Shown piece by piece: positions 1-20,105 of a stretch of DNA of 64,000 bases. This DNA comes from Paractinoplanes maris (GTDB lineage: Bacteria; Actinomycetota; Actinomycetes; Mycobacteriales; Micromonosporaceae): positions 186,001 through 250,000 of the forward strand of contig NZ_JALPVL010000001.1 in NCBI RefSeq assembly GCF_023544465.1, given 5' to 3'. The notes beneath the pieces are model-generated. The model had not been told where the DNA came from, ran no database searches, and worked only from the letters and a program-made list of their open reading frames with translations. Positions within the stretch are counted from its first letter, which is position 1; every line of letters starts with the position of its first letter. Both the position numbers and the translations under genes were made by a program.

Positions 1-244
1 AGAACGGGGTGTCGCCCATCAGGTGCTGCGGTGTGGCCAGCGCGACCACCTGCTCCTCGAGGCCGGCGTCGCGCAGCACCTCCATCGTGCGCTGGTTGGT
101 GATGTGGGCCCGCGGGGTGTCGGAAAGGCTGCTGTACTTGGTGACCACGATGTTGGGCACGCCGTAGGTGCTCAACAGCATCGCGGCCGCCCCACCGGCC
201 GGTCCGCTGCCGACGATCAGCACGTCGGTTTCCACGTCAGCCAT
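1..244 (-). CDS. FAD-dependent aromatic monooxygenase, N-terminal part (resorcinol hydroxylase-like)
   Basis: Only the first 81 residues lie in the window; the gene runs off the left edge. The protein opens with an FAD-binding Rossmann motif, VLIVGSGPAGGAAA, followed by PRAHITNQRTMEVLRDAG, a pattern typical of class A flavoprotein phenol hydroxylases. The ATG at 244 overlaps the stop of the upstream hydroxyquinol dioxygenase fusion by 8 bp (ATGGCTGA), so the two are translationally coupled. That context suggests it hydroxylates resorcinol or a related phenol to hydroxyquinol, the substrate of its partner. The family is clear; the substrate is inferred from the neighbour. Confidence 0.85.
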   Translation of the reverse strand, partial: MADVETDVLIVGSGPAGGAAAMLLSTYGVPNIVVTKYSSLSDTPRAHITNQRTMEVLRDAGLEEQVVALATPQHLMGDTPF

Positions 245-2096: not shown

Positions 2097-2111
2097 CCGA
2101 CCATGACACCA

Positions 2112-2486
2112 TCAACGCGCGCGGAAGGTCCAGCGCGAGTTGAGGGCGTAGTTGACGGCCGGGATCGTGACCAGGGCGAGCGCCTGCACCATCAGGTAGG
2201 GCCCGGTCACCAGGCCCAGGATCGCGGTGTTGAGGGCGAACGCCACGGCGGTCACGGCGAGGAAGCGCCCGCCCGTGGTGACGTGCCCGGTCGAGGCGCG
2301 GAAGACCCAGGAGCGCTGGAGACCGTACGAGACCAGGACGCTCGCCGCGAACCCGGTGGCCGACGCCGTCACCGGTGGCACCTCGAGCCCCTCGGCCAGC
2401 AGGAGCCCCACGCTCAGGTGGGTCAGGGCGCTGGCGGCACCGCTCAAGCCGTACCGGAGAAGGCGGGACGCCTCAGCGCTCGGCAC
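2112..2486 (-). CDS. GtrA-family membrane protein
   Basis: A 124-residue protein with four predicted membrane helices and the GtrA ending YALNSRWTFR. GtrA-family proteins are thought to help move polyprenyl-phosphate-linked sugars across the membrane and usually partner a GtrB-type glycosyltransferase. Such a gene lies directly upstream, overlapping by 14 bp (its TGA is at 2473-2475; this GTG start is at 2486). The pair closes the operon that starts at 4845 and supplies the lipid-linked sugar step of the surrounding glycan island. Family assignment is firm; the sugar is unknown. Confidence 0.9.
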   Translation of the reverse strand: MPSAEASRLLRYGLSGAASALTHLSVGLLLAEGLEVPPVTASATGFAASVLVSYGLQRSWVFRASTGHVTTGGRFLAVTAVAFALNTAILGLVTGPYLMVQALALVTIPAVNYALNSRWTFRAR

Positions 2487-3435
2487 GCTCGGCTCGCACC
2501 CACTGCTCGGGGAGCGAAGCGACCGGCCCCGACCGTTCCTGCACCAGATAGCGCGGGCGGCCGCGGACCTCCTCGTGGATGCGGGCCAGGTACTCCCCGA
2601 TCACGCCCAGACCGAGCAGCAGGAACGTGCCCATCACCAGCAGCAGCAGGATGACCGTGGGGAAGCCGGCCACCGAGTCCCCGCCGATCCAGCGGATCAG
2701 GGTCTGCGCGCCCAGCAGCACGGCGAAGGCGGCGAAGGCCAGCCCGACCATGGTCACCAGGTGCAGCGGCGCCGAGGTGAACGAGGTGAGGCCGTTGACC
2801 GCGAGCCGGAACAGCGAGCCGAACGTCCAGCGCGACCGGCCGCCCGCCCGCTCCTCGATGTCGACCTCGATCGTGCTGCGGCGGAACCCGATCCAGCTGC
2901 TGGTGCCACGGAAGAACGACGAGTGCTCGGGCAGCCGCAGCAGCGCGTCCAAGGCCGGCCGGCCGAGCAGCCGGAAGTCGGTCGCGTCGATCAGGTCGAC
3001 CCGGGTGAGGCCGGTGAACGCCTTGTTGAACGCGCGCCCGCCGAGCCGTCCGACCACCCCTTGGCCGGTACGGTTGCGCTTGACCGCCTCGACCACGTGC
3101 GCGCCCTCCCGCCAGCGGCGCACCATCTCGGGGATGGCGTCCGGCGGGTGCTGCAGGTCGGAGTCGATGACCACCACGGCATCACCGGCCGCGTGCTCGA
3201 GCCCGGCCAGCACGGCCGGCTCCTTGCCGAAGTTGCGCGACAGCTTGAGGCCGCGCACGTGCTCGTCGAGGAGTGCCCGCGCGGCCACCCGGTCCCAGGA
3301 GTCGTCGGTCGAGCCGTCGTCGACCAGCACCAGCTCGAAGCTCAGGCCGGCGCCGGTGAGCACCTCGGTGAGCCGGTCGACGAAGCGGTCCACGCCGGCG
3401 CCCTCGTTGAAGATGGGCGCCACCACGGAGATCAT
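2473..3435 (-). CDS. Polyprenyl-phosphate glycosyltransferase, family 2 (GtrB/ArnC-like)
   Basis: A GT2 enzyme of about 320 residues. It begins MISVVAPIFNEG and has VLVDDGSTDDS, a DSDLQHPP metal/nucleotide motif, and two C-terminal membrane helices ending in GEYLARIHEEVRGRP, a GtrB/DPM1 hallmark. It should transfer a sugar from a nucleotide donor to polyprenyl phosphate on the cytoplasmic face. I chose the ATG at 3435 because family members begin there; an in-frame start 45 bp upstream (3480) is possible. It overlaps gtrA and follows the coiled-coil protein gene by tens of bases, so it belongs to the 4845-2112 operon. Confidence 0.9.
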   Translation of the reverse strand: MISVVAPIFNEGAGVDRFVDRLTEVLTGAGLSFELVLVDDGSTDDSWDRVAARALLDEHVRGLKLSRNFGKEPAVLAGLEHAAGDAVVVIDSDLQHPPDAIPEMVRRWREGAHVVEAVKRNRTGQGVVGRLGGRAFNKAFTGLTRVDLIDATDFRLLGRPALDALLRLPEHSSFFRGTSSWIGFRRSTIEVDIEERAGGRSRWTFGSLFRLAVNGLTSFTSAPLHLVTMVGLAFAAFAVLLGAQTLIRWIGGDSVAGFPTVILLLLVMGTFLLLGLGVIGEYLARIHEEVRGRPRYLVQERSGPVASLPEQWVRAERAER

Positions 3436-3491
3436 CGGGCTCGATACCGTCACGCTCAGCCAACGACGGCGCTCGGGCAAAAGTTACAAAC

Positions 3492-4049
3492 CTAGCGGAG
3501 CAGCTCGGCCAGGGTGGGTGGCTGGGCGCGATCAACGAAGATCGTTCGAGCCGCGCCGTGGTCGCGGTAGAGGCGGGACAACCGCTCCGAGAGCACGTCC
3601 TCCCACGACCGGTCGGGGCGGTGCTGCTCCCAGGTCTCGCGGTCGGGCAGGTATTCCAGCAGCACGCCCAGGTCGCGCAGCAGCGCGAACGACGAGCAGT
3701 CGGTCAGCACGACCGGGCGGTGGCCGGGCTCGACCCGCAGCCGCTCCCGCAGGGTCAGCACGAACTCGCGCAACGGCTCGAAGTCCAGCCCGATCACCAC
3801 GTACAGGTGGACCGGCGCCGGGGTGGCCCGGACCGGACGAGCCGGGCGGCGGGCCGGGAAAAGCCGCTGCAGCACCGACGTACCGGCACGCAGCCGGTCG
3901 CGCTCCTGGCGCAGTCGCTCGCTCTTCCGGCGCTCGTCGGCCAGCCGGGTCTCGAGCGAGCGCAGGCGCCCGGCCATCGCGCTCAGCTCCCAGCGCGCCC
4001 GTTCCATCGCGTCAAGCGGCTCCCGCACCCGCACAGCCGTCTCCCGCAC
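3492..4049 (-). CDS. Coiled-coil plus alpha/beta protein of unknown function (paralogue 1)
   Basis: I do not recognise this 185-residue protein. Residues 15-55 are heptad-rich and charged (likely coiled coil). Residues 80-185 look alpha/beta, with HLYVVIGLD, RPVVLTDC, GVLLEYLP and a closing PPTLAELL. The protein at 8011-8661 matches it segment by segment (HVYVAIGL, LPVVVTD, GVVLEYLP, PPTLARLL), so the two are paralogues. Both lie immediately downstream of a gene of the same other family (4051-4845 and 8651-10126), so a two-gene block appears duplicated. The start is a GTG one base after the upstream stop. No membrane segment or signal peptide is seen; a cytoplasmic role in glycan assembly is a guess from context. 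Confidence 0.75.
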   Translation of the reverse strand: MRETAVRVREPLDAMERARWELSAMAGRLRSLETRLADERRKSERLRQERDRLRAGTSVLQRLFPARRPARPVRATPAPVHLYVVIGLDFEPLREFVLTLRERLRVEPGHRPVVLTDCSSFALLRDLGVLLEYLPDRETWEQHRPDRSWEDVLSERLSRLYRDHGAARTIFVDRAQPPTLAELLR

Positions 4050-4050
4050 C

Positions 4051-4845
4051 TCAGCCTCCGATCTCGCGACGGGCGCCGAGCCCGCCCCACCAGGTCGTGC
4101 CGGGCTCGACCACCCGGTCGAACACCTCTTGTCCCTCGCCGCCGCCGGTGGACACCCAGACGACTCCGGGGTGGTCGCGGATCGCCTCGGCCAGCCCCGG
4201 GCGCGGCCCGCCGGCGACCGCCACGATCGCGGGCTGGTGCACCGCGATCAGATGGGCCAGACGGTCCCGAAGCACTGTCCGGGGCGGGATGTGCTCGATG
4301 AGGAAGCCCGGCGGCACCGCCGTGGCTCCCGGGGCCCATGAGACCAGCACCGCGGACAGATCACCGGGCACCTTCGCCGCGAGCCGGCCGAGGGCCTCCG
4401 GGTCGTCGCCGACGATCAGCATGCGGCGGCCGGGCGCGGGCCCTTCCCGGTGTGTCCGGGCCGGGAGGCTGATCCGCGGGCGGATGCCGAACCCGGCCAG
4501 CCAGCGCAGATGGGACCGCCCGGCCGCCTCGCCGGGATCGTCGACGGCCACGGTGCGCCCGGCCCGTACGGCCGGCAGGTCCTCGACGATCGGGCGCCGC
4601 CCCCGGATAACCAGCAGCCGGGCCGTCACCGGCTCGTCGTCGCGGGCCAGCACGGCCACCCCGTCGCGGATCAGGTCGCGGATGTCCGGGCCGAACGGCA
4701 GGGGCCGCCGGTCGCCGGGCAACGGCGCGTGCACCAGGACCGTGCTCAGCGCCGCGTCGGCCTGCGTGCGCACCTCGGGAGCCACCCGGGCATCGGGGAA
4801 GCGGAAGTCGGCCAGGATCGCCACGTCGTGAACGGTCGTCGCCAT
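4051..4845 (-). CDS. GT-B-like protein of unknown function (short form)
   Basis: A 264-residue protein starting MATTVHDVAILADF. The ATG at 4845 is preceded by a good AGGGGG ribosome site, so an earlier in-frame start at 4896 is unlikely. Its first 100 residues match the start of the protein at 8651-10126 (DVAILSDLR, PF...I..L.DG...LA.DD, ARxLLIR) and the C-terminal modules of the two large glycosyltransferases in this island. The second half (MLIVGDD, IVAVAGGP, VVWVSTGGGEG) resembles a second Rossmann domain, but it ends before the donor-binding tail seen in the longer relative. It may be a truncated or regulatory glycosyltransferase. It is the first gene of the 4845-2112 operon. Confidence 0.7.
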   Translation of the reverse strand: MATTVHDVAILADFRFPDARVAPEVRTQADAALSTVLVHAPLPGDRRPLPFGPDIRDLIRDGVAVLARDDEPVTARLLVIRGRRPIVEDLPAVRAGRTVAVDDPGEAAGRSHLRWLAGFGIRPRISLPARTHREGPAPGRRMLIVGDDPEALGRLAAKVPGDLSAVLVSWAPGATAVPPGFLIEHIPPRTVLRDRLAHLIAVHQPAIVAVAGGPRPGLAEAIRDHPGVVWVSTGGGEGQEVFDRVVEPGTTWWGGLGARREIGG

Positions 4846-4899
4846 GGCCGATCCCCCTCTGAGCGCCTCTGGAAGGCCTAACGAGCACGGACACACTCC

Positions 4900-5036
4900 G
4901 TCACGGGACCGTTACGGAAACCGCATGACGGGGGGCCAACCGGACCGCAACCAGAGGGCATCGGGGTAGCTCCCAAGTCGGCGCGTCCGGGGCCGAACCA
5001 GGTCTGCGAGAGCCCCGGTAGCGACCGGGACCACTT
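4900..5036 (+). promoter_or_regulatory. Candidate c-di-AMP (ydaO/yuaA-type) riboswitch
   Basis: The leader of the CAP-protein gene carries, in order, elements I recall from actinobacterial c-di-AMP riboswitches: GGGGGGCCAACC (4930-4941), GGGCATCGGGGTAGCTCCC (4956-4973), GGGGCCGAACC (4989-4999), and a closing CTGCGAGAGCCCCGGTAGCGACCGGG (5004-5028). In Streptomyces such leaders sit in front of wall-active secreted proteins (for example rpfA), which fits the downstream gene. Recognised by eye; boundaries are approximate and no folding was run. Confidence 0.55.
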
Positions 5037-5051
5037 ACCGGAAGGCAGTCG

Positions 5052-5537
5052 ATGCGTTCTTCGATCACCAAGCGTCTGGCCCTGATCGCGATGATCCCCG
5101 CCACCCTGCTCGTCGTGGTCGCGTTCGCTTCGTCCGCCCAGGCCGCCGTCACCGGCTCCGCGAAGCTGCAGAGCGACATCGCGGTGCTGACCAACAAGCA
5201 GCGCGCGGCCCACGGCTGCAAGGCCGTCGTCGTCAGCCCGGCCCTGACCCGCTCGGCCATGGGCCACAGCGCCTACCAGGCCCGCACCAACACCATGAGC
5301 CACACCGGCGCCGGCAAGTCGACCTTCATCACCCGGACGATCGCCGCCGGCTACAACCGCCCGCTCAGTGAGAACGTGGCGTTCGGCTTCAGCACCGGTG
5401 CCGCCGTTGTCGGGGCGTGGATGAAGAGCCCGGGTCACCGCGCGAACATCCTCAACTGCAAGGCGATCGCGGTCGGGGTCGGCGTGGCCTACGCCGCCAA
5501 CGGCACCCCGTACTTCACGCAGGAGTTCGGTTACTGA
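5052..5537 (+). CDS. Secreted CAP-domain (SCP/YkwD-like) protein
   Basis: A 161-residue protein. A signal peptide (KRLALIAM...VVVAFASSAQA) is likely cleaved after AQA near residue 31. The rest is a single CAP domain with the usual YkwD landmarks: LTNKQRAAHGC near the start, MSHTG, ENVAFG, WMKSPGHRANIL and a final FTQEFGY. CAP proteins are extracellular; their activity in bacteria is poorly defined, but many are wall-associated. GAAGG precedes the ATG. Its leader holds a candidate c-di-AMP riboswitch. The 3' end overlaps the convergent methyltransferase-like gene by 23 bp. Confidence 0.9.
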   Translation: MRSSITKRLALIAMIPATLLVVVAFASSAQAAVTGSAKLQSDIAVLTNKQRAAHGCKAVVVSPALTRSAMGHSAYQARTNTMSHTGAGKSTFITRTIAAGYNRPLSENVAFGFSTGAAVVGAWMKSPGHRANILNCKAIAVGVGVAYAANGTPYFTQEFGY

Positions 5538-6396
5538 GCTCCCGGACGACCCGCCGATAGGACAGCAGGGCCTCACCTTCCCGGGTGAGGCCTTCTGTCG
5601 TCTCCAGCCAGCGCGCGGCGGCCTCCGGGGCGCCGGCCAGGCAGACCGTCGCCGTGTCGGCCAGCACGGCGGTGAGCAGCCGCATGGTGGCGGCGGCGTC
5701 CGGGCCGGTCAGCAGATCCGTGCGCTCGACCACGAGCAGGCCGACGTCGCGCAGGTCGGCCAGGGCCTCCAGCGGCGCCTCGCGGATCTCGGCCACCCCG
5801 GCCAGAGCGTGGGCGGTCAGGCCGGCCCGGGTCCGCCCGGCCCGCGCGGCATCGTGGTCGAGCGAGACCAGCCGGCCACCGGCTTCCTCGACGGCATAGG
5901 CCATCCAGACCGTCGGGGCACCACCGCCCAGTTCGAGCACCACGCGCGGGCGCCGGGTGCGAATCAGGTGCAGCAGGTCGAGCAGCGGAACCGCCCCGCC
6001 CGAGGGCGGCATCGGCGCGCGCGGTGTGACCTGGTGGAAGAGCTGGACGAAAGCCTCGATCTCCCGGGTCTGGGCCGCGGCCCGGTCGGCCGCCTCCCGA
6101 TGCCGGTCACCCGAGTGCAGGAGCAACTCCTCGAGCGCGCCCAGCATCCGGCGCTGGGTCTGGTCGAGCACGGTCCGGGCGTCGGTCTGCTGCCGCCGTT
6201 GCAGGCGCTGCAGCCCGGAGAGCCGCCGGGCCACCAGCAGCAGGCCGGCGAAGAGGATCGTGAAGAAGACCGCGAGCAGGGTGAGGGCCAGGCCGACGTT
6301 CCCGGTCAGCGCCGCCCCCGCCACCGCGGCACAGAGCACGCAGGCTCCGCCGGCCGAGACGATCTGACGGCGGGTCAGATTCCGGAACCGGCGCAT
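5515..6396 (-). CDS. Membrane-anchored SAM-methyltransferase-like protein (paralogue 1)
   Basis: A 293-residue protein: short N-terminus, two membrane helices (about 13-53), a coiled-coil stretch (about 55-115), the motif EIEAFVQLFHQVTPRAPMPPSGG, then a Rossmann fold with VVLELGGGAPTVWMAYAVE (SAM motif I) and LVSLDHD. It is a clear paralogue of the product of 12564-13577, which shares this architecture and the PRAPMP linker. It is the last gene of the 10126-5515 operon and is preceded by GGAGGAGAG. I infer a membrane-tethered methyltransferase acting on a glycan or its lipid carrier; the substrate is unknown and catalysis unproven. Confidence 0.75.
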   Translation of the reverse strand: MRRFRNLTRRQIVSAGGACVLCAAVAGAALTGNVGLALTLLAVFFTILFAGLLLVARRLSGLQRLQRRQQTDARTVLDQTQRRMLGALEELLLHSGDRHREAADRAAAQTREIEAFVQLFHQVTPRAPMPPSGGAVPLLDLLHLIRTRRPRVVLELGGGAPTVWMAYAVEEAGGRLVSLDHDAARAGRTRAGLTAHALAGVAEIREAPLEALADLRDVGLLVVERTDLLTGPDAAATMRLLTAVLADTATVCLAGAPEAAARWLETTEGLTREGEALLSYRRVVRELSNRTPA

Positions 6397-6433
6397 CAGC
6401 TCTCCTCCACGATCGGGACAAACGCCGGTGGCG

Positions 6434-8014
6434 TCAGCCGGTTACGCCCGGGCAGAACGCGACGTCCGCCCGCTGCCGGGAGGCGATCTCCAGCGACTCG
6501 TCGAAACGCCGTACCGAGAACGGCGTGTCGGCGTGCAGTTGCACGAACTCGGCCCGCAGCGCGCACCGGCGGGCGGCGCCGGCGGAGGTCGGGTCGAAGT
6601 CGGCCATCTCGACCGCCACCCGGTCGGCGAGCCGGGCGGCCGGACTGGTCATCGCGAGGTCGCGCTGCCCTTTGTTGGCCGCCGCCGTGACGGTCGCCGC
6701 CGCCGCGAAGAGGACCACGGCCGCGATGAGGGCGCCCTGCCGCCGTACGAGATGAACCAGCGCCACCAGCAGCAGCGCCCCCGCCGTGGTGGTCACCGCC
6801 GAATCCCGCCAGCCGTATCCCCACCGGCCCGTCGTCACGAGCTGCTGCACGTCGGCGTTCAACGACCCCATCGCCGCCCCCAGCACCACGAGCGTCCCGG
6901 CGGTCACCGCCAGCGCGAGAGCCGGCCGCCGTCCGACCTGCGACATCCGCGGCAGATCACGGATCGCGGGCCGGGCCAGCGCCCCGATCACCACCACCGC
7001 GACGATCAGCACGAGCCCGCCCAGCCACGACCCTCGCGGTGCCGCCGCCGGCCACATCAGCGGCGGGAACCAGGCGATGGCTCGTACCGGAAGGGCCTCC
7101 AGCGTCTCCGGCCCGAACCGCACATCGGAGCCCTGGTAGCAGTTCCCGGCCGCGCAATAGCGGTGGATCACCACCCGCACGGCCAGGAAGATCGGCAGGA
7201 ACCCGACCCAGGCCAGCCCGACCGCCCGGGCCGGCGCCGCCGTGAGCAACCGGACCGGCCGCAGGCCCAGCACCAGCCGGCTGCGGGCCAGGACGGCCAC
7301 CGTGGCCAGCGGCAGCGCCAGGTAGGCGATCTCGTTGAACGCCGCCAGAGCCGCCCCGCCCAGCAGCAGCAACGGCATCCGCCACCACCGCAGCGGCCGT
7401 TCGGGGTCGATCCGGCACAGTGCCGCCGTCACCGCCAGGACCAGCGCGGCCGAGGCCAGATAGAGCCCGCCGAAGAGCACGATCGGACTGGACCCCCCGG
7501 CGGCGACGAAGCCCGCGGCGACGGCGAACGGGACGACAGCGGCCATAGTGGACGGTGCCCGGCGGAACAGCCGGCCCCGCGCGACGACGCTCTCGGCGAG
7601 CAGCACGGCGGTCACACACAACAGGATCGCCGAGAGGAACGAGACCAGCCGGAACCCGACGTTCACCGGCAGGCCCAGCACCTCGCTCACCGCGTAGGCG
7701 ACCGTGTCCAGCGCCTTCTCCAGCATCCGCCCGAACAGCCGGAAGTTGCCCAGCCGCAGATAGCCCGGAAGCGAGCCGACGGTGTGCGGCACGATCCGCA
7801 GCGGGTCGTCGCGGAACAGTCCGCCGTGCCAGTAGAGGTTGAACCGATGATCGCGGCTCGGCGCCAGCGCGACCAGCGGCGCCAGCACGGGCAGCGGCAC
7901 CAGCACGGCCCGCAGCAGGGCCCGCCGCCAGAGCGCGCCGACCGGTGGCCCCTCGACGACGAAGCGCATCCCGACACGCGGGGCGGCGGGGGCATCGATC
8001 GTCGAGGAACTCAT
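6434..8014 (-). CDS. Large polytopic membrane protein, unknown
   Basis: A 526-residue protein with roughly ten hydrophobic segments and a C-terminal soluble tail of about 80 residues ending in DVAFCPGVTG. After the first helix comes a hydrophilic segment (RFNLYWHGGLFRDDP), as in some GT-C-type membrane glycosyltransferases, but I see no diagnostic motif. The ATG at 8014 overlaps the stop of the upstream coiled-coil gene (ATGA), so it is coupled within the 10126-5515 operon. It could be a glycosyltransferase using lipid-linked sugars, a polymerase or a transporter; none can be chosen from sequence alone. Confidence 0.7.
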   Translation of the reverse strand: MSSSTIDAPAAPRVGMRFVVEGPPVGALWRRALLRAVLVPLPVLAPLVALAPSRDHRFNLYWHGGLFRDDPLRIVPHTVGSLPGYLRLGNFRLFGRMLEKALDTVAYAVSEVLGLPVNVGFRLVSFLSAILLCVTAVLLAESVVARGRLFRRAPSTMAAVVPFAVAAGFVAAGGSSPIVLFGGLYLASAALVLAVTAALCRIDPERPLRWWRMPLLLLGGAALAAFNEIAYLALPLATVAVLARSRLVLGLRPVRLLTAAPARAVGLAWVGFLPIFLAVRVVIHRYCAAGNCYQGSDVRFGPETLEALPVRAIAWFPPLMWPAAAPRGSWLGGLVLIVAVVVIGALARPAIRDLPRMSQVGRRPALALAVTAGTLVVLGAAMGSLNADVQQLVTTGRWGYGWRDSAVTTTAGALLLVALVHLVRRQGALIAAVVLFAAAATVTAAANKGQRDLAMTSPAARLADRVAVEMADFDPTSAGAARRCALRAEFVQLHADTPFSVRRFDESLEIASRQRADVAFCPGVTG

Positions 8015-8661
8015 GCCGAAGCCAACGACCCCACCCGTCGATCAGTGACGAGCAGCCGGGCCAGCGTCGGCGGATCACGCGGGTCGATCACGACGGCCCG
8101 GGTGACCCGGTGATCGCGGCAGAGCTGGGCGACCCGGCCGGCCAGCAGCGTCTCCCAGTCCCAGCCGGGCTCGTGCCGCGACCACGTCGCCGGGCCGGGC
8201 AGATATTCGAGCACGACCCCGGGAACCCGCAGGCTCCGCAGCGACTGCTGGTCGGTCACCACCACGGGCAGGTGGTCGGCGTCGACCAGCACCCGCTGGC
8301 GCAGCGCCCGGATCAACGCGCGCGACCCGGCCCGGGAGAGCCCGATCGCCACATAGACGTGGGCCGGCACCGCGGCCGGCGGCCCCGGGCGGGCCGGGGC
8401 GTCCGCCGGCTCGCGCCACCGCCGGGCCGCCCGGCCGGCGATCGCCGGGCCCTGGCGCACCGGGTCGCGGGCCAGGTCGACCAGCGCCCGGCCGAGGCGG
8501 TAGGAGCGGCTGCGCCGCAGGGCCAGCACCAGTTCGCGGTTGCGGTCGCGATCCCGCAGGGCGGCGTCGCGCTCGTCCTCGACACAGCGCAACCGCCCGG
8601 TCAACGTGGCCACCTGCCGGCGGGCGAGGGCCAGATCGGCCGCGTCCGGCTCATCGGACAC
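8011..8661 (-). CDS. Coiled-coil plus alpha/beta protein of unknown function (paralogue 2)
   Basis: A 216-residue paralogue of the 3492-4049 product. Residues 5-50 are charged and helical (likely coiled coil), followed by a basic linker (residues 50-90). Residues 95-205 are the shared alpha/beta domain (HVYVAIGL, LPVVVTD, GVVLEYLP, VIDPRDPPTLARLL). The GTG start at 8661 lies inside the end of the upstream gene (TGA at 8651-8653), and its own stop overlaps the next ATG, so it is locked into the operon. Function unknown; the conserved pairing with a GT-B-like partner suggests the two proteins act together. Confidence 0.75.
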   Translation of the reverse strand: MSDEPDAADLALARRQVATLTGRLRCVEDERDAALRDRDRNRELVLALRRSRSYRLGRALVDLARDPVRQGPAIAGRAARRWREPADAPARPGPPAAVPAHVYVAIGLSRAGSRALIRALRQRVLVDADHLPVVVTDQQSLRSLRVPGVVLEYLPGPATWSRHEPGWDWETLLAGRVAQLCRDHRVTRAVVIDPRDPPTLARLLVTDRRVGSLASA

Positions 8662-10126
8662 TCTCGGCCTCCACTTCGGATCGTCGCTGACAATGCCCGG
8701 CCAGCCAGGCCGCGGCGGCCCCGGCCCCGTTGCCGAACGGCAGCTCGGCGCAGCGGCGGCTCAGCGCCTCGCGGGCGGCCGGGTCGGCCAGCCGTTCGAG
8801 GGCCGCCGCGGCCGCCTCGTCGTCGGTGGCGCAGACCGCGACGCCGGCCGCCGCCGCGAAACGGGCCCGGCTCAGCTCGTCGTCGGCCCCGTCCGGGTCG
8901 GGCACGAAGACCGTCGGCACCCGCGCCGCGAGCAGCTCGTGAAAGCTCGTGTAGTCGGCACGGGAGACGGCCAGCGCCGCCTCGTCCTCGACCACCGTGA
9001 AGCCGGGCAGGGTGGCCTCCACACCCCGGCAGAGCAGCGTCTTTCCCGCACCCCGGCGCAACGGCGGCCCCATGATCGGGTCGACCGTGCTCACCCCGGC
9101 CCGGGCGGTGGTCGTCCAGCCCTCGTCCCCGGCCGACGCGAACTCACCGGGCTCGAGGATGCCGGCGAACAACGGGCCTCGCGCCGCCCACTCGCCGCCG
9201 GTGCCCCGCCGCCACATCGCCGGTCGCAGCCACAGCCAGCGCGGGCCCGGGTTGTCGGTGATGGCAGCGGCGATGCCGTCGTGCGGCACCCCGCCGATCA
9301 GGACGGCCCGGGGCCCGTAGAGGTGGATCAGGTGCCGCAGCCGGTCGCGCACGAAACGGGTCCAGCGCTCCTCGGACACCCCGAGATCCGCGGCCGCCGG
9401 CAGATGTTCGGTGAGCAGGCCGGCCGCGCAGGCCTCGGCCAGGCCGGCCGGACCGGCGACCACGATCGGCTCGAGCCCGGCCGGCAGGTGGTGGGCGATC
9501 GCCTGAAAACGCGCGATGTCGTCCCCGACCAGCAGCACCCGGCGGGGCGGACGGGCGGCCGGGCGGACGGGATCCCGGGGCCGGGCACCGCGGGAGAGCA
9601 CGCCCAGCGACGCCAGGCGGGTGATGTGCGAAGCCTCGTCGGCGATCTCGTGCCAGTCGGTCTCGGGCAGCGCCCACCCCGGCATCTCGTCACGCACCCG
9701 GCCGTTGACCGGCGCCCACACCACGCCCGGCCCGAAGTGGCGTTCGATGCGTTCACGGCCCTCGGCGAAGTCGGCCGGCGGCCGGTCGAGCACGACGATC
9801 GTGTGCTGGGACCGTACGCGCGGCACCACGGCCACGTCGTCGGTGAAGATCTGCGGTTGCCGGATCAGCAGGACCCTGGCCGCGAGATCGGTGTCGTCGT
9901 CGTGCGCCAGGTCGGCCAGCCCGTCGCGCAGGCAGGCCACGATCCGGCTCCGGAACGGCCGGGTGTGGTGCAGTTGCGGGGACGGCACATGGATCAGCAC
10001 AGTGGTCAGCCCGGCCGCCGCCTGGGCCCGCACCTCGGCCACCAAGCTCGCCGCACCCCCGCCCGGATACCGCAGGTCGGACAGGATGGCGACGTCGTAC
10101 ACGGCTTGGTCAACGAGACTTACCAT
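8651..10126 (-). CDS. GT-B-like glycosyltransferase, long form
   Basis: About 491 residues from the ATG at 10126; an upstream in-frame TTG at 10183 is less likely, since the shorter relative starts at the equivalent place. The N-terminal module (YDVAILSDLRYP) is shared with the 4051-4845 protein. A middle Rossmann part has RVLLVGDD. The C-terminus resembles GT28/MurG-type donor-binding domains, with ADYTSFHELLAARVPTVFVP followed by DDELSRARFAAAAGVAVC. It heads the operon running to 5515 and is divergent from the GT2 gene at 10192 across a 65-bp gap. A nucleotide-sugar glycosyltransferase is the best reading; donor and acceptor are unknown. Confidence 0.7.
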   Translation of the reverse strand: MVSLVDQAVYDVAILSDLRYPGGGAASLVAEVRAQAAAGLTTVLIHVPSPQLHHTRPFRSRIVACLRDGLADLAHDDDTDLAARVLLIRQPQIFTDDVAVVPRVRSQHTIVVLDRPPADFAEGRERIERHFGPGVVWAPVNGRVRDEMPGWALPETDWHEIADEASHITRLASLGVLSRGARPRDPVRPAARPPRRVLLVGDDIARFQAIAHHLPAGLEPIVVAGPAGLAEACAAGLLTEHLPAAADLGVSEERWTRFVRDRLRHLIHLYGPRAVLIGGVPHDGIAAAITDNPGPRWLWLRPAMWRRGTGGEWAARGPLFAGILEPGEFASAGDEGWTTTARAGVSTVDPIMGPPLRRGAGKTLLCRGVEATLPGFTVVEDEAALAVSRADYTSFHELLAARVPTVFVPDPDGADDELSRARFAAAAGVAVCATDDEAAAAALERLADPAAREALSRRCAELPFGNGAGAAAAWLAGHCQRRSEVEAESVR

Positions 10127-10191
10127 CAGGGCGATACGGACAATTCGCCCGGGTCGTTGATCACCTTGCACTGCTTCGTTCAAGGGGGATC

Positions 10192-12387
10192 ATGCGCGAC
10201 ACCGGACCTCACCCGCTCGCCGTCGCGGCTCTGCAGGCCCGGTCGATCGCCGCGCGCGAACCGCTGGCCCAGCTCGCCGGCGACCCGTGGATCGCCGGCG
10301 AGCTGGCCCGCGTCATCGCCGTGCAGGACCTGCGCCCGGACGACCGGCGCGACGCGCTCGCCCTGCTCGCCGGGCTCCGCGACAGCGGCCGGATCGCGGG
10401 AGTCCACCAGGGACTGCACTGCCAGCTCGCCTACGCCTCGGGCGATCACGCGTCGGCGGCCGCCCTGCTGGCCGAATACCCCGACGTCCCCGCGCCGGTG
10501 CGGGCGGCCCTCGAAGCGGATCTGGGCGGACCGGCCGCTTTCGCCGCGTTGCTGCCACCGCCGCGGGTGTGGGTGACCGACGGACCCGGCGCGCCGCTCG
10601 ACCGGATCACCACCGGTCCGGTGCAGCGCCGGGGCCACGCCCGCCGGATCACGAGCGTCATCACCACGTGGCAGCCCGGTCAGCCTCTGCTCACTGCGGT
10701 GCGCTCGCTGACCCGGCAGACGTGGACCAATCACGAGATCCTGGTCGTCGACGACGGCTCGTCGGGCGAGTTCGAACCGGTGCTGCGGGCGGCGGCCGCC
10801 CTCGACCCGCGGGTGCGGGTGATCCGGATGGTGGCCCGCGGCGGTCCCTTCGTCGCCCGCAACGCCGGTCTCGACGCGGCCACCGGTGACTTCGTGACCT
10901 TTCCGGAGTCCGGCGACTGGTGGCACCCGCTGTGCCTGGAACGGCAGGTGGCGCCGCTGCTGGCCGACGACCGGGTCTTCGCGGCCACGGTCACCACCCT
11001 GCTGGTCACGCCCGACCTGGTGGTGACCCGGCCCGGCCGGTCGGCGTCGGGCCGCTCGGCGCTGCTGATGCGGCGGTCGGTCGCCCTCGGCCGGGTCGGC
11101 CACTTCGATCCCGTACGCGAGGGAGCCGACCTCGAATACGCCGGGCGCGCCCGCGCGGTCCTCGGCGACCGGGCCGTCCAGCACCTGGACGGCCCGCCGC
11201 TGGCGCTGACCCGGCTGAGCCCCGAGCAGCCGGACCCGGCCCTGCGCTCCTACGGCTCGGCCTTCCGGCGGTGGCACACGCACGTCCGGGAGGGCCGCGA
11301 GCCGGCCCTGCGGACCCGAGCCTTCGCGGCGCCGCGCCGGCTGCGGGGTGAGTCCGGGGCCAAGGCGTACGACGTGGTGCTCGCGGGCGACTGGACCACG
11401 GCCGGCGGGGCCGGGGTGGCCGGGATCGGCCGGCTGCGGGCCCTCACCGCCCGCCGGCAGCGCGCCGCCCTGCTGCACCTGGACGTGCTGGCCAACCTGG
11501 GCGACGGTCCCCGGGACCTCGATCCAGCGGTCCAGGATCTGATCAACGACGGCGACCTGACCCAGGTCGAGCTGACCGACGACGTCCGCGCCCGGCTCGT
11601 GGTGGTCCGTTCGGCACAGGCGCTCGAGCACGCTCCCGAACGGGCCGGCGGCGTCCGGGCGCAGCGGGTGGTGATCGAGGACGCGGTGGTCGTCGCGGCC
11701 GCGGCCACCGCGGCCAGACGGCTCTTCGGCCAGCGGCCGCTCTGGGCCCCGGCCGGACCGGACGGACGGCGCCTGCTCACCCTGGCCGGTGAGTCCACAG
11801 TGGCCCCGCTCGACCTGCCCAGCACGCTCGACGCCGCCCGGTGGCGGCTCGACCGCCGGGGCCCCCGCGCCGACCGGCCGGTGGTGGGCCGGCAGTGCCG
11901 CGGCGGCCGCGCCGAATGGCAGCGTCTGCGCGACGAGTTGCCCGAGACGGCCCGGCTGGACGTCCGCCTGCTCGACGCGACCGGCAGCGCGGACCGCTCG
12001 TTCGGCCGGTCCGGGCCCCCGCGCAGCTGGCTGGTCTACGGCCCGGCCGACGTCAGCCTGCGCTCGTTCCTCGGCCAGATCGACTTCTATCTGCACCTGC
12101 CCCCGGACGACGAGCCGGCCGACCCGGTGGCGGACGTGCTCACCGCGCTGGCCGCCGGCTGCGTGGCCGTGCTCCCGCACCGCTATGCCTCCGCCTTCGG
12201 CGAGGCAGCGGTCTATTGCCGGCCCGACGAAGTGCACGACACCGTCCGCCGGCTCCACGCCGACCGGGAAGCACTACGCGACCAATCCGCCCGCGGCGCC
12301 GACTTCGTCCGCCGCCACCACACGCATGATCTGTTCGCGGAGCGCGCGGCCCATCTGGCCCTGCCCACTCCGGCAACGCAAGCGTGA
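10192..12387 (+). CDS. Bidomain glycosyltransferase (GT2 + GT-B-like), GT2 site altered
   Basis: A 731-residue protein. Residues 1-125 are helical. Residues 150-330 are a GT2 domain (SVITTWQPGQPLL, ILVVDDGSSGEFEP, ARNAGLDAATGDFVTF). Residues 392-731 are a GT-B-like module beginning AYDVVLAGDW and ending with a donor-site-like ALAAGCVAVLPHRYASAFGEAA. It aligns over its whole length with the 13615-16044 product. Where that protein has the metal motif DSDDW, this one reads PESGDW at 238-243, so the first GT2 aspartates are lost and the domain may be inactive or metal-independent. AAGGGGG precedes the ATG. It lies divergent from the GT-B gene and may share a promoter region with it. Confidence 0.8.
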   Translation: MRDTGPHPLAVAALQARSIAAREPLAQLAGDPWIAGELARVIAVQDLRPDDRRDALALLAGLRDSGRIAGVHQGLHCQLAYASGDHASAAALLAEYPDVPAPVRAALEADLGGPAAFAALLPPPRVWVTDGPGAPLDRITTGPVQRRGHARRITSVITTWQPGQPLLTAVRSLTRQTWTNHEILVVDDGSSGEFEPVLRAAAALDPRVRVIRMVARGGPFVARNAGLDAATGDFVTFPESGDWWHPLCLERQVAPLLADDRVFAATVTTLLVTPDLVVTRPGRSASGRSALLMRRSVALGRVGHFDPVREGADLEYAGRARAVLGDRAVQHLDGPPLALTRLSPEQPDPALRSYGSAFRRWHTHVREGREPALRTRAFAAPRRLRGESGAKAYDVVLAGDWTTAGGAGVAGIGRLRALTARRQRAALLHLDVLANLGDGPRDLDPAVQDLINDGDLTQVELTDDVRARLVVVRSAQALEHAPERAGGVRAQRVVIEDAVVVAAAATAARRLFGQRPLWAPAGPDGRRLLTLAGESTVAPLDLPSTLDAARWRLDRRGPRADRPVVGRQCRGGRAEWQRLRDELPETARLDVRLLDATGSADRSFGRSGPPRSWLVYGPADVSLRSFLGQIDFYLHLPPDDEPADPVADVLTALAAGCVAVLPHRYASAFGEAAVYCRPDEVHDTVRRLHADREALRDQSARGADFVRRHHTHDLFAERAAHLALPTPATQA

Positions 12388-12523
12388 CCACTTGGCACCC
12401 ACCGAATCGTCAACCCGGCCCCGGCGCGACCGATTCGTAAGGGCACAAGCAGCAAGCACCACAAAGATTCGGAGCGGCCCCCGCCGCCCCGTGAGCGGGA
12501 AGCACCACTCCCCCACCCGCGTG

Positions 12524-12558
12524 CCGCTACCCCGTCGTCCCCCGCGACGGGGTAGCGG
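12524..12558. terminator. Bidirectional hairpin terminator
   Basis: A perfect 14-bp stem (12524-12537 pairing with 12545-12558, CCGCTACCCCGTCG and its complement) with a 7-nt loop, lying between two converging genes. A short TGTTT follows on the plus side. The 135 bp before it, back to the GT2 stop, contain nothing else recognisable. Confidence 0.75.
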
Positions 12559-12563
12559 TGTTT

Positions 12564-13577
12564 CTACACCGAGGTCGGTGCCGCCGCCTGCGGATGCGTC
12601 AGCGCGGTCCAGCGCCCGGCCAGCCGCTTGCGTCTGGTCAGGCCGAAACCGCCGCCCTGGCGCGGTGCCACCCGGGCCGGCTCGTCGTCGACCACCACGG
12701 CCGCGACCGGGCTCAGCCGGCGGCCCAGCACGTGCAGGGCCGGCGCCAGCGGGTCGGGCGCGGCCGGGGTCAGCGTCCCGTCGACCAGCAGCAGATCGAT
12801 GTCGGTGAGGCCGTCCAGCGCGTCCACGTCGTACCAGTCGGCGGTGCGGCCGTCGACCGACAGCTCGGCCAGCGGCACGTGCCGCACCTCGACGCCGGCC
12901 AGCCCGTGCTCGGCCAGCCGGGCCCGCAACCGGGCGGCCCGCCCCTCGTCGTGGTCCACGGCGACCAACCGGCCGCCGGAGACGGCCAGCGCGTACCCCA
13001 GCCAGACCGTCGAGGCGCCGCAGCCCAGCGCCACCGTGAGCCCCGGGCGGCGCTCCCGGGCGACGTGCACCAGCCCGAGCAGGTCGGTCGGATGCAGACC
13101 GCCGCCGGTCGGCATGGGCGCCCGCGGGCTCACCGCCCGGAACAGCTGGAACATGGCCTCGATCTCCCGGCTCTGCTCGCGCAGCAGCAGCTCGGCGCCC
13201 CGGCCGGTCAGGCGCTCGGCCCGCGACAAGGTCTCGGTCAGCTCCAGGTGCCGGTCGCCCGCGGCCAGCCGTTCCTTCTCGACCGCGGCGACCACCCGGC
13301 GCTGCAGCTGGTCGATCGCGCCCCGCAGCTCGAGCACGGCCTCCTGGGTCGAGCGGTGCTGGCGGGTGAGCCGGCGGGACAGATGGACAACCCCGGCCGG
13401 CCCGGCCACCAGCAGCAGCGCCAGCAGGCAGGTGGCCACCACGGCCTGGCCCGCGGGCGACGCGATCGCCACCCCGGTCGCCACGAGCAGTCCGGCGACC
13501 AGGCCGGCGAGCTGCCGAGGGGACACCCCGCCCCGCCGCCGGAGGACGGTGTGGGCGAGCCTGAGCAGCCGAGTCAT
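12564..13577 (-). CDS. Membrane-anchored SAM-methyltransferase-like protein (paralogue 2)
   Basis: A protein of 337 residues from the ATG at 13577 (a GTG 15 bp upstream is an alternative). It has two membrane helices in the first 75 residues, a long coiled-coil region, then the signature EIEAMFQLFRAVSPRAPMPTGGG and a Rossmann domain with TVALGCGASTVWLGYAL and LVAVDHD. The layout matches the 5515-6396 product. Later strands read IDLLLVDGTL and VAAVVVDDEP. It lies downstream of the large glycosyltransferase gene at 13615 on the same strand, separated by about 37 bp. Likely a membrane-bound methyltransferase for a cell-surface polymer; the substrate is unknown. Confidence 0.75.
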   Translation of the reverse strand: MTRLLRLAHTVLRRRGGVSPRQLAGLVAGLLVATGVAIASPAGQAVVATCLLALLLVAGPAGVVHLSRRLTRQHRSTQEAVLELRGAIDQLQRRVVAAVEKERLAAGDRHLELTETLSRAERLTGRGAELLLREQSREIEAMFQLFRAVSPRAPMPTGGGLHPTDLLGLVHVARERRPGLTVALGCGASTVWLGYALAVSGGRLVAVDHDEGRAARLRARLAEHGLAGVEVRHVPLAELSVDGRTADWYDVDALDGLTDIDLLLVDGTLTPAAPDPLAPALHVLGRRLSPVAAVVVDDEPARVAPRQGGGFGLTRRKRLAGRWTALTHPQAAAPTSV

Positions 13578-13614
13578 GCGCACACCGAGCACAACGCGCC
13601 GGCGACCCGGGCCG

Positions 13615-16044
13615 TTACGGGATCGTCAGCAACGCCGGCACCAGATCCCTGATCCGCTCGACGAAGCGGGCCGGGTCGTGGGCGGCGGCGACCACCCGGC
13701 GGGCCCGGCTGCTCTGCTCGGCGAACAGCGCCGGATCAGCCCGGTAGCGCGCGATCAGGGCGGCGGCCTCGCTGCGGGTGCAATAGACGGCCGCGTCACC
13801 GTAGAACGGCCGGTAACGCGGCGGCATCACCACCACGCAGCCCATCGCCGCGGCCTCCAGCGCCGGGCGGGAATACCACTCGGCCGACTCGCGGGGCGGG
13901 AAGTGCAGATAGAAGTCGAGCTGGTGCAGGAACGGCCGGGGGCCGAGATCGCCGGTCTGGTAGGCGAGCCAGGTCGCCGCGATGGTCACGTCACCGGTGC
14001 CGGCCGGCCGATCGGGCAGCCGGACCCGGACGTCGGCTTCGGGCAGTCGCCGGCACACGGCCAGGCTGTCGGCCGCGTCGGGCGGCCAGTTGGCGGCGTC
14101 GCACAGGTCGGTGCCGACGATGGCCGAGCCCCGGGTGCGGTCGGCCACCCAGCCGCCGGTCGCGAGGGTGACGGGCAGGTCCTCCGGTTCCAGGTTCCCC
14201 ACCGTACGCAGGGCCGCCCGCACCCCCGGATCGCCGGGAACCCACGCCGGCTCGGCACCGAAGAGCCGCCGTACCGCCTCCGTGCAGATCTCCGGCTCAT
14301 AGCGGTGGTCGCTCCCGTCGGCCCGCACCGGCGCGCGGTCGGCCACCACCAGTGCCCGGGCCGCTCGTACGCCGCTGGTCAGCCCCCCGGTGAACTGGAC
14401 GACCGCCACCTGCCGCACCACCAGCAGGGCCGTCTCGACCCGGTCGTCGAGCGCCACCTGATCGACCGTGCCCGCGTTGACCAGGTCCTGCACCGGCGCC
14501 GCAAGCGGCATCCGCCGCACCTCCAGCGCCCGGTACGAATCGAGCTGGAGCACCGCGACCCGCAGCCCGGCCGCGCTCAGCGCCCGCAGCTCGTCGAGGG
14601 CTGTGCGCTGGGTGCTCTCCAGGAACCGCCAGTCGGCCACCATCACCACGTCGTACGCCCGGTCCCGCACCGTCCCGAGCAGGTGATCGGGCGCCGGGAA
14701 GGCCCGGTCGCCCCCGTCGGCCGGCCGGTAGGCCCCGGCCTGCCGGGCCGCGATCACCTGGTGGTGCCGCTGATAGGCCGACATGTAGGCGGTCCGCGCC
14801 GGGTGCATCCAGTGCGCCCGGATCTCCGAGCGGGACAGCGAGCCCGGCGAGAGCCGGATCAGTGCGAGCGGCGGCGAGTCGAGGTGCCGCACCCGGCCGG
14901 CCCCGAAGGCGGCCTGGATCCGGCCGATGTATTCGGAGTCGGCCGCCTTGCGCAGCCGGTCGAAATAGCCGGCCGTCCGCAGCACCGCGCTGCGCCGCAG
15001 CAGCAGCGACGACGGGTTGAACCGGCCGCTGCGCACCCCGGGCCGGGTGCAGAGCAGCTGGTCGGTCACGGCCAGTCCGTCCGAGGTGGTGGCGACCAGG
15101 CGCCGGTCCTCGAGCAGCGGCCGCACCTGCAGCTCGATCCGCCGCGGATGCGACCAGTCGTCGGAGTCCTGGAAGGTGGCGAACTCGCCGCCGGCCGCGT
15201 CCAGCCCGGCGTTGCGGGCCGCGTAGGTGCCGGAGTTGACCGGCATCCGGACCAGTTTGATCCGGTCGCCGAGGGCCACTGCTTCGCGCAGGACCGGCTC
15301 GAACTCCGGGGGTGAGGCGTCGTCCACGATCACCACCTCGGTGTTGGCCCAGCTCTGCGCGAGGATCGAGCGCACCGCGGTGATCAGCCCCCGGTCGGGA
15401 CGGTAGGCGGTCACGATCACCGAGACGCGGTGCGGGCCGTCGACGCGCTCGGCCGATCCGGTCAGCCGGTCGAACGGCGGGCCGGTCCCCTCGGCCACCT
15501 CGCATCCGGGCATCAGGGCGTGGAACGCGGCCAGCCAGGGCGCGACGGGCCGGGCGGCCACGAACGGGTTGAGCAGGTCGGCCCGCAACCCGGCCCGCGT
15601 CGGCTCGGCGATCTTCAGGTAGCGGCGCAGCAGCTTGCGGACCCGGGCCGGGCTCTCGGCGGTCAGCGCCAGCTGGGCGTGCAGCGCCTGGTTGGCCGGG
15701 GAGAGCGCCCGGGCGCCACAGGCCCGGCGGGTGAGCTCGAACAGGGCGAGAGCATCGTCCCGGTCGGCCGGCCGCAGCTCCTGCAGGGCCAGGCTGTGCG
15801 CGAGGGCGGCGACCAGGCTCGGATCGATCTTGCGGCGCCGGCTGCGCAGCCATCGCCGGTCGCCCGCGCGGGCCGCCGCGAGCAGCCCGTCGAGGGTGCC
15901 GTGCTCGCCCAGCGCGGCCCGGGCCAGCAGCACCCGGGCGTCGAGCGAGCGGTTGCGGGCGGCGGTGGCGGTCAGCGCGAGTCTCAGCCGGGGCCCGGCC
16001 GCTGCGACATGATCATCGAGGAGGCCGGATGGGTGGGGCAGCAT
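13615..16044 (-). CDS. Bidomain glycosyltransferase (GT2 + GT-B-like)
   Basis: An 809-residue protein. Residues 1-190 are helical and repeat-like (LALQELRPADRDDALALFEL). The GT2 domain spans about 205-400, with VSVIVTAYRPDRG, VIVDDASPPEFEP and an intact FQDSDDW motif (Asp293, Asp295). The C-terminal module from residue 463 (AYDVVMVADWRF) ends in a GT-B donor-site-like stretch, ALEAAAMGCVVVMPPRYRPFYGDAA. It resembles bifunctional polymer synthases with two glycosyltransferase sites, but no acceptor can be named. It is a full-length paralogue of the 10192-12387 product. No membrane segment is seen. It precedes the second methyltransferase-like gene in one transcription unit. Confidence 0.8.
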   Translation of the reverse strand: MLPHPSGLLDDHVAAAGPRLRLALTATAARNRSLDARVLLARAALGEHGTLDGLLAAARAGDRRWLRSRRRKIDPSLVAALAHSLALQELRPADRDDALALFELTRRACGARALSPANQALHAQLALTAESPARVRKLLRRYLKIAEPTRAGLRADLLNPFVAARPVAPWLAAFHALMPGCEVAEGTGPPFDRLTGSAERVDGPHRVSVIVTAYRPDRGLITAVRSILAQSWANTEVVIVDDASPPEFEPVLREAVALGDRIKLVRMPVNSGTYAARNAGLDAAGGEFATFQDSDDWSHPRRIELQVRPLLEDRRLVATTSDGLAVTDQLLCTRPGVRSGRFNPSSLLLRRSAVLRTAGYFDRLRKAADSEYIGRIQAAFGAGRVRHLDSPPLALIRLSPGSLSRSEIRAHWMHPARTAYMSAYQRHHQVIAARQAGAYRPADGGDRAFPAPDHLLGTVRDRAYDVVMVADWRFLESTQRTALDELRALSAAGLRVAVLQLDSYRALEVRRMPLAAPVQDLVNAGTVDQVALDDRVETALLVVRQVAVVQFTGGLTSGVRAARALVVADRAPVRADGSDHRYEPEICTEAVRRLFGAEPAWVPGDPGVRAALRTVGNLEPEDLPVTLATGGWVADRTRGSAIVGTDLCDAANWPPDAADSLAVCRRLPEADVRVRLPDRPAGTGDVTIAATWLAYQTGDLGPRPFLHQLDFYLHFPPRESAEWYSRPALEAAAMGCVVVMPPRYRPFYGDAAVYCTRSEAAALIARYRADPALFAEQSSRARRVVAAAHDPARFVERIRDLVPALLTIP

Positions 16045-16087
16045 GCACCGTCAAACGGTGCCGTGGGCCCGCCGGTGACGACCGGGC

Positions 16088-18355: not shown

Positions 18356-18363
18356 CGTCAGGC

Positions 18364-20105
<1,742 letters not shown>

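Follow-up and report, generated by a model that had tools for sequence, protein, structure and literature searches.

The closest described relative of the locus discussed here is the gsf cluster of Actinoplanes missouriensis, an 11-gene set running from AMIS_70380 to AMIS_70480 (Tezuka and Ohnishi 2026, PMC13390465, June 2026), whose deletion reduces the size of the sporangia, leaves the spores immature, misshapen and in chains, and lowers the number of spores released; the authors could not complement it. According to that paper, the deletion makes no macroscopic difference to growth, induction of the cluster falls in the early stage of sporangium formation, the C-domain of glycosyltransferase (GT) family GT28 in AMIS_70440 spans residues 619-685, and the 11-transmembrane (11-TM) protein AMIS_70420 is given no function. 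A second point of reference is provided by the multi-component transmembrane glycosylation systems, which follow a GT-A/GtrA/GT-C scheme (review PMC8035078). Here, we describe a counterpart of the gsf cluster from Paractinoplanes maris, found in a 64,000-nucleotide stretch (the window) of contig NZ_JALPVL010000001.1 that starts at contig position 186001; its gsf core is present in two adjacent, divergent versions.

A variant gsf locus

An earlier interpretation of this DNA (the sequence-only reading) had taken it for a surface-glycan island built from four pairs of paralogues and did not know the gene set as a described system. The locus is instead a composite, partly eroded variant of the recently described gsf cluster, and the system itself is thus known; a literature search for 'gsf gene cluster' together with Actinoplanes returned PMC13390465 only. 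Counterparts of 10 of the 11 gsf genes are present at this locus, two of them just outside the window. The comparison is anchored by locus L114, in which protein P0014 of A. missouriensis 431 is found without a single difference from residue 2 onwards and which is therefore the A. missouriensis gsf locus; the GYNSFHEL motif of P0014, at residue 634, lies within the GT28 C-domain of AMIS_70440. The genes of the window island are as follows, with positions counted from the first nucleotide of the window.

2112..2486, minus strand: g2, GtrA-type flippase; counterpart AMIS_70400 (PF04138, 64.9 bits, cut-off 26.1; synteny)
2473..3480, minus strand: g3, GtrB/PgfS-like GT2, putatively membrane-linked; counterpart AMIS_70410 (PF00535, 92.8 bits; best NCBIfam match PgfS, 235 bits, below its cut-off of 500)
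3492..4049, minus strand: g4 (C2), coiled coil with an orphan GT-B-like N-domain; second copy, shortened (paralogue of g9; on the tree side of the single-copy Actinoplanes)
4051..4896, minus strand: g5 (D2), truncated double GT-B remnant without the GT28 C-terminal domain and without the GxGxGH loop
5052..5537, plus strand: CAP-domain protein with a signal-like N-terminus (PF00188, 72.4 bits; sequence)
5515..6396, minus strand: g7 (MT2), methyltransferase-like protein with a membrane anchor, lacking the motif IV aspartate (paralogue of g12)
6434..8014, minus strand: g8 (TMP1), multi-spanning protein with a predicted GT-C-like fold; counterpart AMIS_70420
8011..8661, minus strand: g9 (C1), coiled coil with an orphan GT-B-like N-domain; counterpart AMIS_70430
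8651..10183, minus strand: g10 (D1), double GT-B, the first GT-B without its C-domain and the second without both loops; counterpart AMIS_70440 (PF04101, 22.2 bits, cut-off 22)
10192..12387, plus strand: g11, GT2 plus GT-B, with the GT2 DxD changed to ESG; counterpart AMIS_70450 (PF00535, 80.9 bits)
12564..13592, minus strand: g12 (MT1), transmembrane segment, coiled coil and class I methyltransferase domain; counterpart AMIS_70470 (PF13578, 37.1 bits, cut-off 26.3; motif I acidic residue replaced)
13615..16044, minus strand: g13, GT2 plus GT-B, with the GT2 DxD intact; counterpart AMIS_70480 (PF00535, 86.8 bits; PF13524, 28.0 bits)

The eight paralogous open reading frames (ORFs) were found where they had been predicted and have a coding-type third-position GC of 0.89-0.96, while the CAP gene, which runs against the direction of the genes around it, had been overlooked. 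Profile scans assigned the GT2 domain of g3 to the PgfS/ArnC type, g12 to Methyltransf_24 and g10, barely over the cut-off, to Glyco_tran_28_C; the match of g11 to Glyco_trans_1_2 falls just under the cut-off and that of g13 above it. The Pfam scan gave no match for g5 and g8 and sub-threshold matches only for g4, g7 and g9, with no methyltransferase match for g7.

Profile mapping of 41 islands (40 fetched islands and the window) showed that islands with a single core copy usually follow the order glnD, g13, the methyltransferase-like family of g12 (MT), g11 (reverse), the double GT-B family of g10 (D), the coiled-coil family (CC), the multi-spanning family of g8 (TMP), GtrB and GtrA. To this are added an AT3 acyltransferase gene, after MT in some islands and after CC in others, a reverse-strand CAP gene after MT or AT3 in most, and UDP-sugar dehydrogenase and Stealth genes beyond GtrA wherever the island stretch reached that far. 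Minus the CAP gene, this is the gsf order from AMIS_70480 down to AMIS_70380 (compared with section 9 of PMC13390465). The window matches it as GT2, MT, (AT3), GT2 (reverse), GT28 protein, domain-less protein, 11-TM protein, GtrB and GtrA, with a second core block as an addition, and the UDP-sugar dehydrogenase (contig 183267-184511, L074:11267-12511) and Stealth (contig 181507-183267, L074:9507-11267, adjoining ffh) genes are also present beyond GtrA, so that the island extends past the window edge. The AT3 counterpart of AMIS_70460 gave no profile match in positions 1-20000 of the window or among the eight L074 proteins scanned, and the locus is therefore classed as a variant gsf locus; AT3 relatives occur on other contigs of the genome, the best at 48% identity.

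In content and order, the locus thus shares with the gsf cluster two GT2 proteins, a transmembrane methyltransferase, a GT28-type protein, a domain-less protein, the 11-TM protein, a GtrB-like GT2, GtrA, UDP-sugar dehydrogenase and Stealth. It differs in having two D-CC-MT core versions, eroded catalytic motifs and a CAP gene, in lacking the acyltransferase, and in carrying a pair of aromatic-catabolism genes between GtrA and the dehydrogenase. The CAP gene, which is absent from the gsf gene list as published, occurs in 35 of the 41 mapped islands, L114 not being among them.

Two divergent core versions

That four families each occur twice in 14 kb is borne out, the pairs being true paralogues with BLASTP E-values from 5e-27 to below 1e-122, far beyond chance: 46% identity over 104 residues for g4 and g9 (E=5e-27), 33% over 325 for g5 and g10 (E=5e-29), 39% over 258 for g7 and g12 (E=1e-38) and 39% over 739 for g11 and g13 (E below 1e-122). 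Both blocks also have in common the order of GT-B-like gene followed by coiled-coil gene. The 'GT-B-like' genes themselves are not the simple enzymes they had been taken for; domain maps and motif alignments show them to be eroded double GT-B proteins, whose N-terminal domain recurs in the GT-B part of the GT2-GT-B proteins (g10 against g13, E=4e-7). Two assignments are new here, namely that of the GT-B-like genes as reduced forms of a double GT-B protein and that of the coiled-coil protein of the g4/g9 family as an orphan half GT-B. The C-terminal half of the D proteins matches PF04101, as in MurG and other GT28 glycosyltransferases, from which they differ in that this half is fused behind a second GT-B and that the window copies have no glycine-rich GxGxGH loop.

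The window and 19 further islands (L075-L093) each contain two D-CC blocks, and in these 20 two-copy islands we refer to the versions as copy 1 (in the window g12, g10, g9 and g8) and copy 2 (the second block, g4, g5 and g7). In all four family trees (MT, CC, TMP and GT-B, the last abbreviated GTB), a branch with SH-aLRT support of 96-100 separates copy 1 and the islands L094 and L095 from copy 2 and the single-copy islands; these trees are unrooted, and with outgroup rows the MT tree leaves copy 2, the single-copy islands and copy 1 unresolved among themselves. L094 is titled Jidongwangia and has the same contig positions as L015. A tree that forces both copies of the two-copy genomes into a single clade is rejected by MT (p=1.8e-4), TMP (p=4e-7) and GTB (p=1.6e-6), and not by CC (p=0.148). 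The g11 and g13 proteins of two-copy genomes behave like copy 1, being 62% identical to those of L094 as against 52-54% to those of single-copy islands. GtrB is uninformative, because its grouping rests on midpoint rooting and it is 76% identical to L094 and to the single-copy islands alike. From the family trees and clade tests it follows that the window island unites two gsf core versions that have diverged from each other and differ in their phylogenetic affinities. Parts of the second version are gone from the window locus, where profile mapping found neither AT3 nor a second TMP gene (TMP2); both are seen in at least 7 of the 20 two-copy stretches, some of which end early, and the genome of L084 has additional TMP copies on other contigs.

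Motif erosion and purifying selection

Catalytic motifs have been lost unevenly across these islands. The GxGxGH loop of the GT28 half of D is present in 19 of 19 single-copy proteins, 8 of 20 copy-2 proteins, none of 20 copy-1 proteins and neither of those from L094 and L095, and motif alignment finds it in neither g10 nor g5 of the window. The GT2 D-x-D motif is intact (DSD) in all 35 g13 rows, while in g11 it is lost in 8 of 20 rows from two-copy genomes, against 1 of 19 elsewhere. The acidic residue of methyltransferase motif I is present in 18 of 18 single-copy proteins, in 18 of 18 copy-2 proteins with a surviving domain (two further ones are cut short and lie outside the 18 scored) and in none of 21 proteins from copy 1 and L094/L095. 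Of the 18 copy-2 proteins, 9 lack the motif IV aspartate, the window protein among them. As a result, g12 reads VALG, with no acid, and DGT, g7 reads LELG and ERT, and neither has both motifs. Such losses in g12 or g7 need not mean an inactive methyltransferase.

Selection on the eroded genes was assessed by omega (pairwise NG86, domain envelopes only) between the window genes and those of L075, L076 and L077. Values were 0.24-0.34 for the second GT-B of g10, 0.39-0.43 for g9, 0.31-0.34 for g11, 0.29-0.36 for g7 and 0.16-0.34 for g4; in g5 the first domain gave 0.30-0.36 (against two relatives) and the GT-B remnant 0.64-0.84. As omega is mostly low despite the motif losses, the genes are mostly still constrained.

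Weighing the alternatives

The sequence-only reading had seen in the shared gene order a block duplication, which, if recent and within the window's own lineage, should make both copies sister to each other. Only the CC family allows this, and since three of four families reject it and the g11/g13 split precedes that among these islands, so that the four pairs have no one shared origin, a recent tandem event is very improbable. An old duplication before the radiation of the genus, with one or the other block then lost in most lineages and no lateral merger, is a much more serious contender, to which we give about an even chance. It needs no transfer; the order of the two-copy segments fits one tandem repeat, MT-CAP-g11-D-CC-AT3-TMP, with complementary losses; in the TMP tree the single-copy islands divide between the copy-2 and copy-1 sides (a single-copy clade is rejected, p=0.001), as the sorting of two old copies would give, and those that group with copy 2 share its order of CC, AT3 (reverse) and TMP. 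However, transfer or recombination between islands would produce the same TMP split as well, and the tests do not reject a single-copy clade for MT, CC and GTB (p 0.32-0.44), which would require many clean losses of the old second copy; GtrB, equally distant from all groups, is of no help. The two versions may have been joined laterally, from two separate islands, or may descend from an old duplication followed by losses.

The fate of the second block and the product of the island invite further alternatives. Genes g4, g5 and g7 could be plain decaying DNA without function, as might be suspected from the missing C-terminal domain and high remnant omega of g5, the motif IV loss in g7 and the absence of AT3 and TMP2 from the locus; given the low omega of g7, g4 and the first domain of g5, we consider this unlikely. 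An equally speculative converse is that dead glycosyltransferases and methyltransferases are deliberately kept, the Jidongwangia-type block (a D without the GT28 loop, a methyltransferase without the motif I acid and a coiled-coil half GT-B) serving as a membrane scaffold or chain-length ruler around g13, the one intact double transferase, and that its union with a catalytic gsf block allowed the catalytic copies to decay, each MT partner losing a different motif. The island might also make a vegetative secondary wall polymer of teichuronic or teichoic type, the sporangium role in A. missouriensis being indirect. Relatives of g13 do stand beside UDP-sugar dehydrogenase and AT3-SGNH genes in Oerskovia (L041) and Aeromicrobium (L048), together with a UDP-GlcNAc 2-epimerase in the former and a TagF-like gene in the latter, but the unaltered macroscopic growth of the gsf deletion strain and the timing of induction (PMC13390465) count against this, and we regard it as rather unlikely.

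A candidate GT-C component

The GtrA and GtrB-like genes that had been proposed are present (PF04138 and PF00535), and a lipid-linked surface-glycan machine is likely. Compared with the GT-A/GtrA/GT-C systems (PMC8035078), the window has a putative membrane GT-A protein in g3, whose GT-A domain is followed by two hydrophobic C-terminal stretches, a GtrA flippase in g2 and a multi-spanning, predicted GT-C-like protein in g8. Unlike those systems, this set shares its island with GT2-GT-B and double GT-B proteins, and the first outer loop of g8 carries D55-H56 rather than a canonical DxD; the pair, which follows the first helices, is invariant in 45 of 45 family members, with no DxD there. The predicted GT-C-like fold is a new assignment for g8 and hence for AMIS_70420, and by this prediction g8 would supply the GT-C that is missing beside the GtrA/GT-A pair in the gsf model.

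Genomic setting and distribution

The proposed insertion next to glnD, into an otherwise conserved backbone, is confirmed, since glnD and ffh are 21.0 kb apart here and mostly within 1 kb outside the genus (28 of 43 genomes with both genes on one contig, from 61 sampled). In one genome of another genus (G045), 21.6 kb separate ffh and glnD (C1:4089323-4110917) with no MT match inside, possibly a second kind of insert at the same site. The aromatic-catabolism pair inside the gsf island consists of a fused maleylacetate-reductase-like (iron-type alcohol dehydrogenase) and catechol/hydroxyquinol-type dioxygenase gene (window 237-2096, minus strand) and an adjoining flavin (FAD) aromatic hydroxylase gene just outside the window (L074:12514-14244, minus strand). 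The fused gene also follows the GtrB/GtrA end in L075-L079, L081 and L082.

Among 300 genomes of the window's family, 67 of them from its own genus, D occurs in 59 (51 within the genus), the g8 family in 51, all within the genus, and MT in 97, comprising all 67 of the genus and 30 others with weaker matches. The co-occurrence that would mark a system is seen within the genus, where D and g8 are both present in 48 of 67 genomes and both absent in 13, with D alone in three and g8 alone in three. The 13 genomes without D and g8 keep MT. In a reduced island (L018:7994-21447), where neither D nor g8 has a match, glnD is followed by two ORFs, GT2-GTB, MT, a 162-residue ORF, AT3-SGNH, Stealth and ffh.

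A g13 scan of GTDB contigs returned 65 loci, of which 37 bear the title Actinoplanes or Paractinoplanes; a glnD match was found in 37 of the 65. In distantly related actinobacteria, too, at least two g13-like matches lie close together, namely in L041, L047, L051, L052, L054, L064 and L065 (Oerskovia, Ruania, Aeromicrobium, Promicromonospora and Phycicoccus), and the GT2-GTB pairing is therefore not confined to Actinoplanes. In Oerskovia (L041:20411-22330), a gene for an N-acetylmuramoyl-L-alanine amidase-domain protein adjoins the g12-like gene.

A working model and its implications

Taken together, we think it probable that the island, as a gsf counterpart with two divergent core versions, makes and decorates a glycan of the sporangium or spore surface, a role in sporangium size and spore maturation being extended by analogy from the A. 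missouriensis phenotype. In such a pathway, g13, with its intact GT2 motif and GT-B, would assemble the glycan in the cytoplasm, and, following the GT-A/GtrA/GT-C scheme, g3 would charge undecaprenyl phosphate (C55-P) with a sugar, g2 would flip the lipid-linked sugar and g8 would transfer it to the polymer outside the cell. The membrane-anchored methyltransferase-like and coiled-coil half-GT-B proteins would probably cap, measure or scaffold the chain. In layout, the MT proteins may resemble WbdD-type chain terminators, with a methyltransferase, a coiled coil and a membrane anchor on a single polypeptide; they differ from these in that the Pfam scan found no kinase domain. With fewer intact motifs than in A. 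missouriensis, the glycan of the window species is likely to be simpler.

The 20 related islands form a series of stepwise catalytic-motif loss in double GT-B and methyltransferase proteins, in which purifying selection is mostly kept in the pairs measured, and this two-copy series is suited to asking whether pseudo-enzymes serve as scaffolds. An anonymous cluster is now linked with the sporangium phenotype of a knock-out, and with g8/AMIS_70420 named as a candidate for the GT-C lacking in the gsf model, that model becomes directly testable by a single-gene deletion.

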